This document shows, one piece after another, positions 2,930-47,500 of a stretch of DNA of 64,000 nucleotides; position 1 is the first letter of the stretch, and each line of letters opens with the position of its first letter. The DNA lies in NCBI RefSeq assembly GCF_000420165.1, contig NZ_ATUK01000010.1, positions 496,001 through 560,000 of the forward strand, read 5' to 3'. The translations under genes and the position numbers were made by a program. The notes beneath the pieces were generated by a model that did no database searches, was not told where the DNA came from, and saw only the letters and a list, made by a program, of their open reading frames with translations. The stretch is from Thioalkalivibrio sp. AKL19 (GTDB taxonomy: Bacteria; Pseudomonadota; Gammaproteobacteria; Ectothiorhodospirales; Ectothiorhodospiraceae).

Positions 2930-3006
2930 CGGAGTGTAGCTCAGCTTGGTAGAGCACTGCCTTCGGGAGGCAGGGGTCGAAGGTTCGAATCCTTTCACTC
3001 CGACCA
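2930..3006 (+). tRNA. tRNA-Pro (anticodon CGG)
   Basis: A 77-base cloverleaf. Acceptor stem CGGAGTG (2930-2936) pairs with CACTCCG (2996-3002), followed by discriminator A and an encoded CCA. The anticodon stem CTGCC/GGCAG holds loop TTCGGGA, giving anticodon CGG, which reads CCG codons. The T-arm has the GGTTCGAATCC pattern. A CATAAT hexamer at 2911-2916 may be its -10 element. Confidence 0.97.
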
Positions 3007-42783: not shown

Positions 42784-43971
42784 TCAGTTTTCGACGACGC
42801 GGGTACCGGCCTGCACGCGGTCGCCCGGGCGGGTGACTACGCGCTCGCCCCCCTCCAGGCCCTCCAGGATCTGGGTCGTGAACCCGGAACGGCGGCCCAC
42901 CTCGACCCGTCGCGGCTCCGCACGGCCGTCCTCGACCACGTACACCGACCAGTCGCCACGGTCGCGGAACAACGCACTGGTCGGCACCTGCAGCACGTCG
43001 TCGCCCTCCCACAGCAGAAACTCGGCCTCCACGCGGTAGCCAACGGCCAGCCCGGCCAGGCGCGCCTCCACCGCATCCAGATCGAGGATCACCGGCACAC
43101 GCTGTTCGTCCACGCCTAGCGCGGAGATCTTGGTGAAGCCGAACGGCTGCACCCGACGCACCGTGGCGTCCAGCTGCGCGTCACGACCCCAGTCCGTCAG
43201 GCGCACGCGCATCCCCGGTACCACGCGCACCGCATCCATCGACAGCAGGTCCACCTGCACCTCCAGGTCGTCCAGATCGCCGACGACCAGTACCGGCTCG
43301 CCGGCGCCGATGGTGCCCTCGCAGCAGCGGTAGCGCTCCAGCACTACGCCCTCGGCGGGCGAACGCACGGACAGGGAATCCGCCTCGGATTCCGGCATCT
43401 GGCCGCTGGCGATATCCAGCACCACGCGGGCACTCTCGATCTCGCTGCGCGCGACCTCCACCGCCGACTCGCCCGCGCGCACGGCGGAACGCGCCCGGTC
43501 GCGCATCGTCTCCATGCGCTCCATCTCGGTCGCGGACACCGCCCCGCGGTCGAACAACTCCTGGTGGCGGCGATACTCGGACTCGGCAAAACGCGCCTCG
43601 GCCCGCAGGTTCTCCAGGTTCGCCTCCGCGCTTTGCAGCCGCGAACGCGCGGCGGCCAGGTTCTCGCGCGCCTGCTCGCGCGAGCGCGCATCCAGCGCTG
43701 GCGTCGGCAACGGCTCCAGGCGGAACAGCGTATCGCCCAGCGCCACCGCGTCGCCCTCCTCCAGCGCTACCCGATGCAGATAGCCCGCAATCGGCGCCGA
43801 AACCGTGTAGGTGTCGCGCAGCCGGGTACGCCCCTCCTCGCGCACGGTCTCCTCGAAGGAGCCCTTGTGCACCTCGCTGAGCGACACCGGCACCGGCTGC
43901 GGCCGCAGCGCCCACACCAGTGCGGCCACCCCCGCCAGCACCACCAGCCCAATCGTGATCCGCTTCCTCAT
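42784..43971 (-). CDS. HlyD-type periplasmic adaptor (membrane fusion protein)
   Basis: About 395 residues. An N-terminal membrane anchor (ITIGLVVLAGVAALVWAL) is followed by a split lipoyl domain (TVSAPIAGYLHRV ... SVRSPAEGVVLERY), an alpha-helical hairpin of about 100 residues between them, and beta-barrel domains with VPTSALF. It would bridge an inner-membrane exporter to the outer membrane. The likely partners are the ABC ATPase and FtsX permease genes at 45140-48268, in the same orientation but separated by a 1.17-kb repeat nest. ATG 43971 is favoured because GAAGG precedes it at 7 bases; ATG 43977 is possible. Confidence 0.88.
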   Translation of the reverse strand: MRKRITIGLVVLAGVAALVWALRPQPVPVSLSEVHKGSFEETVREEGRTRLRDTYTVSAPIAGYLHRVALEEGDAVALGDTLFRLEPLPTPALDARSREQARENLAAARSRLQSAEANLENLRAEARFAESEYRRHQELFDRGAVSATEMERMETMRDRARSAVRAGESAVEVARSEIESARVVLDIASGQMPESEADSLSVRSPAEGVVLERYRCCEGTIGAGEPVLVVGDLDDLEVQVDLLSMDAVRVVPGMRVRLTDWGRDAQLDATVRRVQPFGFTKISALGVDEQRVPVILDLDAVEARLAGLAVGYRVEAEFLLWEGDDVLQVPTSALFRDRGDWSVYVVEDGRAEPRRVEVGRRSGFTTQILEGLEGGERVVTRPGDRVQAGTRVVEN

Positions 43972-44083
43972 CGCCATGCCTTCAGTCTCGCAAATCCTGC
44001 TGTCGGGCGCTCCCCCATTCACTCGCATGATGCCTACGGCAAGTCGGCACAGCGACGTCCCTTTTACGGGGCCCAATCCAGCC

Positions 44084-44350
44084 GCCTTGTGGTGGCTGGC
44101 CCCGGTTCGTCATCGGGTGTTTACGGTGCCTTCGTCCGGCCGCCTGCCACGCGCTCTCTCGCGAGCGCACCGCGAGGTACTTCTTTGCTCGTGCAAAGAA
44201 GTACCCAAGAAACACGCCCGACTGCCGCGACCCCGGCCCGCTGCGCGGGCCGGGGTTTCCCTCGCTCCGAGGCTTTTCGCGGGCGGCGCTGAACTCGCCA
44301 CGCTCCGCTCCGCTCAGACATCCAGCGCCTTGAATCCCGCGAAAAGCCTC
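44084..44350 (+). repeat. Structured intergenic element, family D copy 1
   Basis: Non-coding element of about 265 bases, homologous in inverted orientation to 44644-44887. Three hairpins are visible: a 13-bp stem 44176-44188/44193-44205 with TCGT loop, an 11-bp GC stem 44231-44241/44245-44255, and a perfect 15-bp stem 44269-44283/44336-44350. The last encloses an inner GGCGCT/AGCGCC stem. Compared with copy 2, the first and last stems have different sequences but the same pairing. Any reading frames inside are by-products of the repeat. Confidence 0.75.
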
Positions 44351-44503
44351 TCCACTCGGCGCGACGACAACGGGGAGGCAGGTCAAAACAACGGCTATCC
44401 CAGCGCTATGGCTAATAGATGATGGCTAGGCTTTCGGACATCTTCGCACCCTCGGCCTTTGGCCATGGCGTGCCGCGCCCGCGAAGCGGGCGCCGGGGGC
44501 TTT

Positions 44504-44594
44504 CGTAGGATGCCGATGAGCGTAGCGAATCGCATCAGGGTTTCGCACGACGTTGGGAGTGGTGCGTTTCGCTGGGCTCAACCGCACCCTACGG
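44504..44594. repeat. Intergenic inverted-repeat element, family E
   Basis: A 91-base unit starting CGTAGGATGCCGATGAGCG and ending CCGCACCCTACGGG, with related arms in opposite orientation. It resembles the widespread CGTAGGGTGCG-type bacterial intergenic repeat. It lies between the two family D copies and shows no coding signals. Confidence 0.6.
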
Positions 44595-44643
44595 GATGCC
44601 GCCTGTTTTGACTTTCCCCTCCCGTATGCAGCCCCTTGCGGAA

Positions 44644-44887
44644 GGGTCCTCGGGCCGGGAGAAGGCGCTGGATGTCTGAGCGAAGCGCAGCGTAGCGAGT
44701 TCAGCGCCGCCGGTCCGAGGGCCCTGGAGCAAGGTTCCCGGGCGGAATCCGGGTGTCCTTCTTTGGGTCCTTTCTTGGACAAGCAAGAAAGGACCTCGCG
44801 GTGCGCTCGCGAGAGAGCGCGTGGCAGGCGGCCGGACGAAGGCTCCGTAAACACCAGATGCCGAACCGGTGCCAGCCACAACAAGGC
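44644..44887 (-). repeat. Structured intergenic element, family D copy 2
   Basis: Inverted homologue of 44084-44350. The equivalent hairpin 1 is a perfect 12-bp stem at 44766-44777/44784-44795. The equivalent outer stem pairs 44644-44658 with 44710-44724 over 15 positions, two of them G-T wobbles. The most conserved block, about 80 bases including GCGCTCTCTCGCGAGCGCAC, is nearly identical between copies. The middle hairpin is weak in this copy. Confidence 0.75.
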
Positions 44888-44936
44888 ACGCGGCCGAACG
44901 CAGCCAGTAAAGATCCGCAACCACCGTCACAAGCCC

Positions 44937-45113
44937 CGTCATTGCGAGGAGCGCAGCGACGAAGCAACCTCCGAAAGCGGGCAATGCTTTCAAGATCTGG
45001 CTGCGCTGGTTCCGGATGGAGATTACTCGCTGCGCTCGCCCTTCGGGCCGGCCTGCGGCCGTTCAACGCGCTTCGCGCTTTTGTGCTTCGTCGCTGCGCT
45101 CCTCGCAATGACG
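44937..45113. repeat. MITE-like element with perfect 30-bp terminal inverted repeats, family C
   Basis: The ends 44937-44966 and 45084-45113 are exact reverse complements over 30 bases, beginning CGTCATTGCGAGGAGCGCAG. The 117-base interior is non-coding. Similar CGTCATTGCGAGG-bounded units are common in intergenic DNA of many bacteria and look like non-autonomous mobile elements. It ends 27 bases from the FtsX permease stop codon. The gaps 43972-44083, 44351-44503, 44595-44643 and 44888-44936 around the four repeats hold nothing recognisable. Confidence 0.8.
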
Positions 45114-45139
45114 GCTGGCCTGTTCGGTCCTCCGGAATG

Positions 45140-47500
45140 TCATTCCGCGGCCTTCAGGGCCTGTACGCGGTCGAGGCTCTGCAGGCGGCGCCAGGCGAGG
45201 AAGGCGGTCAGGCTGGCCGCCACCAGGATGCCCAGCGCGGCGAAGCCGTAGGCCTGCGGCGTGATCACCAGCGGTACACGCATCAAATCCATCGCGAAGG
45301 CCTGGTTCAGCAGCCAGGCGAAACCGGTGCCGGTGAGCCAGGCGACCGGGATCGCCGCCAGCGTCAGCACGGCGATCTCGCCCAGCAGGATCCAGCTCAC
45401 CTGGCCGCGCGAGTAGCCGAGCACCTCCAGCGTCGCCAGGTCACGGGCGCGTTCGGCATAGGTGATGCGCGCGTTGTTGTAGGTCACGGCGAAGGCGATG
45501 GACACCGCCAGCGCCACGAACACCAGGGCGAACACGATAATGGTCTCGCCGATGTATTCGCGGATGTTGCGCTCGGCTTCCGCGATCAGACCGACGCTGG
45601 CCACACGCGGGCGATCCGACAGCCGCGCGAACAGCGCTGCCTCCTGCGCGCGGTCGGTCAGCAGCCAGGCACCGGAGACGGCCGGCCCCTCGCCGATCAG
45701 GCGATTCAGCGCCGGGCGGTACATGTAGGCGCCGACGCCGATCGGCTCCTCCACCACCCCGGCCAGCGGGACCGAGACCGTGCGCCGGCGCCCCTCGAGG
45801 ATCTCCAGCTCCACCGGATCGCCGACGCGCAGCCCCAGCTGCTCCGCCAGGTAGTCGGTCAGCAGGATGCCTTCTTCCGGCAGGCGACCGCGCCCGCCCG
45901 CCGTCGGCAACTGACGCAGGCGCGGTTCCGCGTCCAGACCCAGCAGGCGCACGCGCTCCTCGCGGTTCACCCCGACCAGCCGCACCGGGACCGCGCGGAA
46001 GGTCTCCACCGCCAGCACGCCCGGCTCGTGGCGCAGCTCCCCGGCCGCGCGCGCCGGCACCGGATCGGTGAACTGCAGGTCGATGTCCATCTGCAGCACC
46101 TGCCCGTACTGGGTATCCAGCATCTGATCCACCGCGTTCAGCTGGTAGGCGCCCATCAGCAGCAGTCCGCCGGACAGGCCGATGCCGATCACCGACAGCA
46201 CGGACTTCAGCCGGTGGCGCGCGAGGTTGCGCAGGATGATGCGGGTCGGCTGGTCCAGCCCGCGCCACGCCGCCGTGCGTTCCATCCAGCCGCGGTGAAA
46301 ACGTTCCGGTGCCGGTGGGCGCATGGCCTCGGCCGGGGCCATGCGTACCGCCTGCCACACCGCGCGGAAGGTGCCGAGCATGGCCGCGCCCATCGCCACG
46401 GCCACCGCCAGCACCATCACCCAGGGCTGCAGGCGAAAGCTCATCGCCGGGAAGCGGAAGTACTCGGCGTAGATGCCGGCCAGGCCCTGCGCGGCCCAGG
46501 CCCCGAACGCGAGCCCCAGCGCACAACCCACCAGCACGATGCCGCCGGTCAGCAGGCCGTAGTGCGCGGCAATCGCGCCATTGCCATAGCCAAAGGCCTT
46601 GAGCACTGCGATCGGCTCGCGCTGCGAGCGGATGATGCGTCCGACCACGACGTTCAGCAGAAACGCCGCCACCGCCAGGAAGATGGTGGGCAGGATGGCC
46701 GCCTGGGCGCGCAGCTGGGTCAGCTCCTCGGACAGGAAGCGATGCGAGAACTGGTCCTCCCGCCCGTAGGCGCCCAGACCGCCGTAGCGGGCCAGCGCGC
46801 GGTCCATGGCCTCGATCACGGGCTCCGGGTCGGCGCCCGCTTGCAGACTCACGGTGACGGAGTTGAACGCCCCCTCCATGCCGTAGGCGGCCGCCAGCGC
46901 GCGGCGGTTCATCCACAGGATGCCGTAGCGCTCGTAGTCCGGCAGCAGGTCGGTGGGGCTGATCTGGTAGACGAACTCCGGCGACAGCGCGATGCCGCTG
47001 ATCTGCAGGTCGGTCAAGCGCCCGTCGATGATCGCGCGCAGGGCATCCCCGGCGCCCAGACCGTGCGCCTCGGCGAAGGCCTCGCTGACCACCACCTCGC
47101 GCTCGCGGCCCGGCTCGGGCAGCCGGCCCTCGCGCAGGTAGAGCCGGTTCAGGAGCGGCTCGCCCCCGTCCGGCAGGGAGAGCATGGTGCCCCGGATCGG
47201 GTCGTCGAAGCCGGCCACCTCCAGACGCACCGGGGCCTGCACCCGGGTCTCGATCTGGTTGATGCCCGGCGCATCGCGGAAGCGCTCCACCGCGCTCTCC
47301 GGCGCGCGCGTGATCTCCGCGAACACATCGGCGAACTGGTATTCGGAGTAGAAGCGCTCCTTGGTGATGGTCAGGGCGTCGAGGCTGGTGACCGCGATCA
47401 CCAGCGTCATCACCCCGCTGGCGATCACCAGCGCGATGGCCGCCGCTTGGCCCTTCAGGTGGCCGAGATCGCGCAGGATCTTGCGGTTCAGGGCGCGCAC
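45140..47500 (-). CDS. ABC transporter permease with two FtsX domains
   Basis: A 786-residue inner-membrane permease of the MacB/LolE-like class in a duplicated form. The first half has an N-terminal helix, a periplasmic MacB-type domain and three helices around 265-380. The second half repeats this, with three final helices around 655-775. FtsX-type sequence such as ERARDLATLEVLGYSRGQVSW marks the C-terminal domain. The start is probably GTG 47500, 18 bases after the ATPase stop. It pairs with the ATPase gene and probably with the HlyD-type adaptor downstream, as a tripartite exporter of unknown substrate. Confidence 0.9.
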   Translation of the reverse strand: MRALNRKILRDLGHLKGQAAAIALVIASGVMTLVIAVTSLDALTITKERFYSEYQFADVFAEITRAPESAVERFRDAPGINQIETRVQAPVRLEVAGFDDPIRGTMLSLPDGGEPLLNRLYLREGRLPEPGREREVVVSEAFAEAHGLGAGDALRAIIDGRLTDLQISGIALSPEFVYQISPTDLLPDYERYGILWMNRRALAAAYGMEGAFNSVTVSLQAGADPEPVIEAMDRALARYGGLGAYGREDQFSHRFLSEELTQLRAQAAILPTIFLAVAAFLLNVVVGRIIRSQREPIAVLKAFGYGNGAIAAHYGLLTGGIVLVGCALGLAFGAWAAQGLAGIYAEYFRFPAMSFRLQPWVMVLAVAVAMGAAMLGTFRAVWQAVRMAPAEAMRPPAPERFHRGWMERTAAWRGLDQPTRIILRNLARHRLKSVLSVIGIGLSGGLLLMGAYQLNAVDQMLDTQYGQVLQMDIDLQFTDPVPARAAGELRHEPGVLAVETFRAVPVRLVGVNREERVRLLGLDAEPRLRQLPTAGGRGRLPEEGILLTDYLAEQLGLRVGDPVELEILEGRRRTVSVPLAGVVEEPIGVGAYMYRPALNRLIGEGPAVSGAWLLTDRAQEAALFARLSDRPRVASVGLIAEAERNIREYIGETIIVFALVFVALAVSIAFAVTYNNARITYAERARDLATLEVLGYSRGQVSWILLGEIAVLTLAAIPVAWLTGTGFAWLLNQAFAMDLMRVPLVITPQAYGFAALGILVAASLTAFLAWRRLQSLDRVQALKAAE

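Follow-up and report, generated by a model that had tools for sequence, protein, structure and literature searches.

In the window, the whole 64,000-nucleotide stretch of Thioalkalivibrio sp. AKL19 DNA that was analysed, two repeats face each other between two tandem genes. Judged by reading their translations rather than by a family search, these neighbours encode an HlyD-like protein (ORF 42784-44076, minus strand) and an ABC permease (45140-47500, minus strand). The facing repeats were confirmed to be a single repeat of about 0.8 kb, made of a left (L) arm, a centre and an inverted right (R) arm. The original prediction had described an inverted pair of elements whose stems keep their pairing while their sequences differ, and these parts were recovered. 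The arms share two inverted blocks, 44084-44208/44763-44887 (125 nt, 90% complementary) and 44282-44331/44662-44711 (50 nt, 94% complementary). Hairpin 1 is 100% paired in both arms (44176-44188/44193-44205 and 44766-44777/44784-44795), and so is the L outer stem (44269-44283/44336-44350, 15 nt), while the R outer stem (44644-44658/44710-44724), read from the sequence, has 15 pairs including two G-T wobbles. The three compensating changes proposed between the two versions of hairpin 1 also agree with the sequence. The features are listed here, with what each assignment is based on in brackets.

44084-44360, minus strand: L arm; the putative functional RNA strand is minus (centre to flank)
44151-44168, minus strand: hairpin 0 of the L arm, GCGCTC/GAGCGC (alignment, covariation)
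44176-44205, minus strand: hairpin 1 of the L arm, the long pseudoknot stem (inverted-repeat search, covariation)
44206-44212, part of 44206-44216, minus strand: putative third-strand segment CAAGAAA of the L arm (window sequence, congeners)
44213-44216, minus strand: distal strand of the second pseudoknot stem of the L arm, CACG with CGTG 44190-44193 (sequence, congeners)
44260-44272, minus strand: L-arm hairpin CCTC-GGAGC-GAGG, whose loop has GGA, not ANGGAN
44269-44283, minus strand: one side of the L outer stem, partner 44336-44350 (inverted-repeat search)
44361-44604, no strand: centre, with REP-like inserts in the window copy and no evident gene (ORF list, alignment of copies)
44605-44887, plus strand: R arm, inverted; the putative functional RNA strand is plus (centre to flank)
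44644-44658, plus strand: one side of the R outer stem, partner 44710-44724 (sequence)
44737-44753, plus strand: R-arm hairpin CCCGG-GCGGAAT-CCGGG, whose loop has GGA, not ANGGAN
44754-44757, plus strand: second pseudoknot stem of the R arm, TGTC with GACA 44778-44781 in the hairpin-1 loop (sequence)
44759-44764, plus strand: proposed third strand TTCTTT of the R arm, parallel to AAGAAA 44785-44790 (sequence, third-strand rules)
44766-44795, plus strand: hairpin 1 of the R arm, the long pseudoknot stem (inverted-repeat search, covariation)
44803-44820, plus strand: hairpin 0 of the R arm (alignment, covariation)

An Rfam search of the 64-kb window returned a tRNA gene (2930-3003) as its sole match and nothing on the element; with E values up to 1, nothing was detected between 40000 and 50000. 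No promoter-like sites were found in the element region. Beside the element, 44936-44966 and 45084-45114 form a perfect 31-nt inverted repeat starting CCGTCATTGCGAGGAGCG, which resembles a CGTC-tagged REP pair; a sequence resembling it was found at the same site in the congener G009. The centre holds a GTAGGATG..CGAATCGCATC unit (44505-44536) that resembles a GTAG-tagged REP, an insert found in the window copy and in L037 only, among 12 aligned copies.

Copies in the genome and the genus

The genome that holds the window (2.88 Mb, 18 contigs) gave 56 blastn matches to the L arm. Twelve of them are full-length, at 88-100% identity and with the window copy counted, and the complete order outer-L, inner-L, centre, inner-R, outer-R was found in 11 of these 12, the twelfth meeting a contig end. 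When 40 genomes were searched for the element, 14 matched, namely this genome and 13 of 24 congeners (one through a single weak match); genomes of other families gave 0 of 15. The L and R subtypes usually occur as a pair, and some congeners have two R-type arms. The differences between the arms of the window are therefore mainly those of L versus R, and the hairpin pairs that differ between L and R also vary inside each type. A short module, CCCGTTTTTGATCAACAACTGG, stands in place of AGGTA between hairpins 0 and 1 in L110, L124-L128, L077 and other congeneric arms of both types.

Most congeneric copies occupy the 3′ ends of genes. They are retained at orthologous sites, where they can also invert. 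At the site of the window copy, the element or part of it was present in 9 of 17 congeneric loci and absent in 8; three of the filled loci are inverted (G041, G042 and a partial one in G004), and two carry two R-type arms (G001 and G005). At six other sites of the AKL19 genome, the element was in place in G002 at five, once inverted, and several contigs of G009 end inside it. The gap at the window's site appears to collect repeats, because in the two nearest relatives (G009:C24 and G002:C12, loci L106 and L107) the place of the element is taken by different inverted repeats that resemble REPs.

The ORFs flanking 75 elements were convergent in 44 cases, tandem in 30 and divergent in 1 (gene strands were assigned by a GC3 heuristic, and orthologous sites are counted more than once), compared with 9 convergent, 23 tandem and 9 divergent among 41 adjacent ORF pairs of the window. 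In the convergent cases, the median distance from stop codon to element is 64 bp. Convergent placement can also be compatible with a mere tolerance of gene ends.

Distribution and covariation in the class

Similar repeats had been predicted to be widespread in gammaproteobacteria, which proved correct: a model of the hairpins, R1, matches 82 of 370 genomes of the class (E 1e-3), in 69 of 272 genera. In the phylum, 35 of 299 genomes match R1 at E 1e-4. A pattern scan of named genomes gave at least 119 stretches, mostly gammaproteobacterial by title, and the matches listed include Shewanella, Salinisphaera, Guyparkeria, Halothiobacillus, Tahibacter and Endozoicomonas. A blastn comparison of the element DNA with plasmids and phages, in a distant setting, gave no match, and a pattern scan of viral contigs gave one stretch.

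Covariation was measured at two depths. For hairpins 0 and 1 within the genus, 105 distinct sequences were used, obtained from 175 arms by removing duplicates and any arm that lacked the anchor motif or had a swapped 20-base module. Here 99.0% of cells are paired versus 90.5% after shuffling, covariation is 0.236 versus 0.081 (0 of 500 shuffles reach the observed value; slid versions go up to 0.096), and six pairs are changed on both sides. The class-wide alignment, fitted to the model, has 145 distinct rows drawn from the best 150 of 177 matches, partial antisense rows included. In it, 97.5% of cells are paired, covariation is 0.539 versus 0.153 shuffled and at most 0.064 slid, and all 18 of 18 stem pairs change on both sides. 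The covariation first seen between two arms is therefore found in a larger alignment, and selection for structure, one of the two explanations offered at first, agrees with a pairing kept through two-sided changes across the class. That the stem pairing is under selection, and that the arms form a structure, is well supported by these alignments. The other explanation, exchange of stems by recombination, holds in part: exchange does occur, as chimeric stems, the swapped module and in-place inversion indicate, but it fails to explain covariation between genera.

The pseudoknot and its third strand

Judged from its sequence, hairpin 1 is an H-type pseudoknot with a third strand that obeys triple-helix rules. 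The 207 hits used came from the class and pattern searches, after exclusion of partial antisense matches, of exact L224 repeats and of a number of weak rows; two of the 207 gave no hairpin. Among the 60 distinct hits that had not been chosen by the search pattern, 48 have a complementarity of at least 4 bases between the hairpin-1 loop and the sequence downstream, versus a mean of 20.8 and a maximum of 31 in 1000 permutations. The pairs of this second stem differ by lineage (TGTC/GACA, TGCC/GGCA, CGTG/CACG, GCGGCC/GGCCGC). In Thioalkalivibrio, L arms have TCGTG/CACG (62), and R arms TTGCC/GGCA (62), TTGTC/GACA (3) or TCGTG/CACG (14). Covariation and loop-downstream pairing together indicate two crossing stems kept by compensating changes; the pseudoknot was not found in 28 of 205 hits. 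A second pseudoknot, formed by the hairpin-0 loop, was rejected as a general feature, as it was seen in a subset only (37 of 135 distinct hits versus 20.0 permuted, maximum 30).

Between the two pseudoknot stems lies a segment that reads as a mirror image of the long stem's purine strand. Over 105 distinct combinations the mirror identity is 0.879, versus 0.670±0.012 when third strands are permuted (0 of 2000 reach 0.879). The first G falls on the same step of third strand and stem in 75 of 91 cases (permuted mean 26.7, maximum 43 in 5000), and in 20 of 31 distinct tract pairs (permuted 7.4, maximum 17). Reading the segment as a direct repeat was rejected, with 4 cases versus 31 for the mirror and 16 ties (n = 51); a less even scoring, with six registers for the direct and three for the mirror reading, gave 24 mirror, 13 direct and 7 ties over 44 tract types.

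T interruptions of the purine strand are matched by C in the third segment in 7 of 8 cases, and C interruptions by A (8), G (4) or C (2). Read from centre to flank, the third strand of the arms thus places U on A, C on G and G on U, and sets U, C or G against C. All of these except G on C are known steps of a parallel pyrimidine third strand. The R arm of the window gives an example, TTCTTT (44759-44764) beside AAGAAA (44785-44790). In class arms the third strand is matched to the stem, and a triple helix is predicted. Arms that do not fit the third-strand rule exist, for example in Tahibacter soli. In Tahibacter soli (L285, L256, L333, L309 and L292), one of the arms forms a hairpin like GGAGTTGCTTGTCCAACTCC; its loop is the usual one, but its stem lacks a purine tract.

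Telomerase RNA, SAM-II and ENE elements are RNA pseudoknots with a triple helix in the major groove, in which a pyrimidine loop runs parallel to the purine strand of a stem. The arms would share this arrangement, with U.A-U and C+.G-C steps as in RNA major-groove triplexes. They differ from those RNAs in being dispersed bacterial repeats, whose triple helix is deduced from sequence only.

Strand preference

The triplex code, the loops and most wobble counts point to the centre-to-flank strand as the functional one. On the flank-to-centre strand, 152 cells of the R outer stem are A-C and 1 is G-T; the A-C cells become G-U wobbles on the centre-to-flank strand, although these 152 are concentrated in few columns and are not independent. 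Wobbles of the L outer stem are even (4 versus 4), and 27 of its 70 rows have a C-C mismatch. Hairpin 1 leans the other way, with 13 A-C versus 22 G-T when rows with the swapped module are included. Class-wide stems favour the centre-to-flank strand by 28 to 13, and congeneric hairpins without the swapped module have the same lean (9 versus 4). The ANGGAN hexaloop hairpins found in 142 class arms number 92, all of them on the centre-to-flank strand.

CsrA-type loops

At least one ANGGAN-type hairpin is present on the centre-to-flank strand of 72 of the 142 class arms, and two or more in 43; such loops occur in 51 of 106 class loci. Most hexaloops are closed by C-G, and shuffling the letters within them leaves 3.8 (maximum 10 in 200 shuffles). 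The hairpins have 35 different 5-bp stems, and their density is 3.81 per kb in arms versus 0.030 in flanks. CsrB/RsmZ-type CsrA sponges, which are one or two dedicated sRNA genes, likewise have several ANGGAN hairpins per RNA, as in 43 of the 142 class arms; the arms described here differ in being dispersed, inverted and placed at gene ends, and the loops are absent from the window's subtype. CsrA genes (PF02599) were present in 9 of 9 genomes looked at, with two in the AKL19 genome. ANGGAN is the CsrA/RsmA consensus and, when carried on a stem, the high-affinity CsrA/RsmE site (PMC3791407 and PMC4005645), and arms with ANGGAN loops may dock CsrA.

The Rfam family TwoAYGGAY (RF01731, clan CL00106) gave 12 matches above the gathering score in 9 of 17 chosen loci, all 12 on the centre-to-flank strand beside the pseudoknot. 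Its model has 168 positions and ends before the pseudoknot and triple helix of these related arms. In the class it matches 23 of 342 genomes at E 1e-3, 13 over the cut-off, and a comparison of lists showed that 13 of the 23 have R1 matches and 10 do not. The same class search gave 0 matches in the AKL19 genome; there was no match on the window copy at the gathering score, and none at E up to 10 in L031, L042, L113, L180 and L181. TwoAYGGAY is predicted to bind CsrA, tandem GA pairs in a stem being mentioned (both in the accessible text of PMC4333381), and inverted pairs, cargo or a triple helix are not described in the excerpts of the TwoAYGGAY literature at hand. The statement that such repeats lack a functional description thus holds for the window copy, which has no Rfam match, but not for the related arms that match RF01731.

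ANGGAN hairpins were found in 0 of the 175 Thioalkalivibrio arms. Having neither AYGGAY/ANGGAN loops nor a match to the TwoAYGGAY model, these arms are a divergent relative. The window arms are thus not filed under RF01731, which weakens the case for membership, though not the case for a comparable mode of action. CsrA docking by the window's own subtype is doubtful, because it has no ANGGAN loop. Thioalkalivibrio hairpins with GGA loops lie nearly only on the centre-to-flank strand, the commonest one in 62 of 70 L and 50 of 105 R arms. A different tip, GAACTCG..GCTCAGACA, is found in 169 of the 175 arms and also in 35 of the 142 class arms, 23 of which have the scaffold motif common to 35 ANGGAN arms.

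Enclosed genes and element ends

Neighbouring hits within 3 kb are inward in 55 cases, parallel in 10 and outward in 0; at least 3 of the 55 inward pairs are one locus under two identifiers, leaving 52. Nine of these 52 distinct pairs, each pair spanning more than 950 bp, enclose ORFs. Ten proteins from eight of the nine pairs were scanned against Pfam (L319 and the second ORF of L216 were left out). Above the cut-off were T5orf172 (GIY-YIG; L214), Methyltransf_11 (L216), HEPN_AbiU2 (L219) and AAA_16 (L318); the remaining scanned cargo gave nothing above it, an Rhs-like fragment (L260) falling below. In L260 (4824-6481, Oleiagrimonas citrea), this C-terminal Rhs-like fragment shares the space between the inverted arms with a 203-aa ORF, and the two might be an effector tip and its partner. 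The centres of aligned Thioalkalivibrio copies are short, with no evident gene.

The outer ends of the element are variable, with repeated units of about 55-65 bp; in L048 (1130-1357), for example, such units contain GGTGTTTACGGTGCCTTCG and vary in copy number. No sharp ends or target duplication were seen in aligned copies, and the empty sites at hand are not close. In G007 and G012, about 38 bp separate the aligned flanks, which are too diverged to define a junction; in G009 and G002, other, REP-like repeats occupy the site. At the yebC site of the AbiU2 cassette, 7 relative loci gave one weak R1 match (E 0.035) and were too diverged for an end to be placed.

REP/BIME and MITE are, like this element, dispersed extragenic structured repeats, but the element is larger and sharp ends were not seen. 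REPs are palindromes of 20-40 bp that end in GTAG or CGTC. They have been reported in Thioalkalivibrio (PMC3733652). REP-like units lie separately, within and beside the element, and no GTAG or CGTC tag was found beside hairpins 0 and 1 in alignment A1.

Discussion

The reading that we prefer, with a probability slightly below one half (about 0.48), takes the pair in the window for a single copy of a dispersed RNA element with two arms, a two-way 3′ tail capped by a triplex and docking CsrA in many lineages. From centre to flank, each arm would have, in this order, a long closed stem whose tip varies, the H-type pseudoknot and a GC hairpin. The pyrimidine loop of the pseudoknot would serve as the third strand, set against the stem's purine strand (U.A-U, C+.G-C). 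As the arms are inverted, a transcript crossing from either side, or starting in the centre with its cargo, would end with an oriented arm. That the last arm is correctly oriented whichever way transcription crosses fits a 3′ tail, in which pseudoknot and triple helix may block 3′-to-5′ exonucleases or mark the RNA end. Tip hairpins would dock CsrA/RsmA in many lineages, and the tail could respond to CsrA or titrate it. Covariation, loop-downstream pairing, the third-strand rules, the strand counts, the orientation of flanking ORFs and the presence of CsrA genes speak for this reading. Against it stand the missing ANGGAN hairpins of Thioalkalivibrio arms, the 10 genomes with TwoAYGGAY but no R1 match, the uneven wobble counts, the C-C mismatch of the L outer stem, the lack of a promoter-like site and the position of the window copy between tandem genes.

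A bolder version, which we regard as tentative and somewhat unlikely, takes the element for an RNA gene cassette. Its two inverted, triplex-capped, CsrA-docking arms would give an enclosed or adjacent gene, in either orientation, a protected and CsrA-responsive 3′ tail, and would carry defence-type genes (AbiU2, a STAND-like ATPase, GIY-YIG) across Gammaproteobacteria.

The arms might instead serve their own spread, for example by a transposase acting in trans or by recombination between copies, in a selfish repeat without host function for which gene ends are merely tolerated. Dispersed copies in many genera, inverted pairs, cargo between arms and recombination between copies would all be expected of such a repeat, and RAYT-like genes flanked by long terminal inverted repeats are described in the accessible part of PMC3733652. 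Yet G002 retains the element at 5 of 6 AKL19 sites, 9 of 17 congeneric loci keep it at the site of the window copy, neither sharp ends nor a target duplication was seen, and mobility has no obvious need of ANGGAN loops and triplex rules. We consider a purely selfish origin unlikely.

Less probable is a DNA-level repeat, an intrastrand triplex or cruciform formed by the flank-to-centre strand, with purines in the third strand and an effect on replication or stability. The interruption code fits a pyrimidine motif on the other strand, and the second pseudoknot stem, the strand-specific ANGGAN loops and the wobbles also argue against folding as DNA. We keep this rival because bacterial DNA triplex repeats of related shape are described in the available text of PMC4666352. 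For one of them, TM_ECO/PIT of E. coli, a G/C-rich intrastrand triplex of the pattern CCCTCNCCC-GGGNGAGGG-GGGNGAGGG was proposed there. As in these repeats, the arms have a hairpin and a mirror purine segment (with Y-R-R order on the flank-to-centre strand), many copies and sometimes inverted pairs. But TM_ECO/PIT are 34-36-nt DNA motifs rich in G/C, according to the same text, whereas the motifs described here are A/T-rich, belong to an arm of about 250 nt and have a second pseudoknot stem. The TM_ECO pattern was not found in the arm stems, those listed being A/T-rich and of other sequence. The weakest candidate, a bidirectional transcription terminator, would agree with the convergent placement at a median of 64 bp from stop codons and with four terminator-like sites where 1.2 are expected, but it is improbable, as all four are weak, two are not on the favoured strand, and termination does not require a structure of about 250 nt with a pseudoknot and protein-docking loops.

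If the two-way 3′ tail is the right reading, the arms, present in about a fifth of the sampled genomes of the class (82 of 370), would offer a large set of naturally occurring RNA triple helices in which the code of the third strand can be read. TwoAYGGAY, an orphan family of Rfam, would gain a genomic setting, and CsrA regulation may be shaped by dispersed RNA arms that sometimes carry genes.
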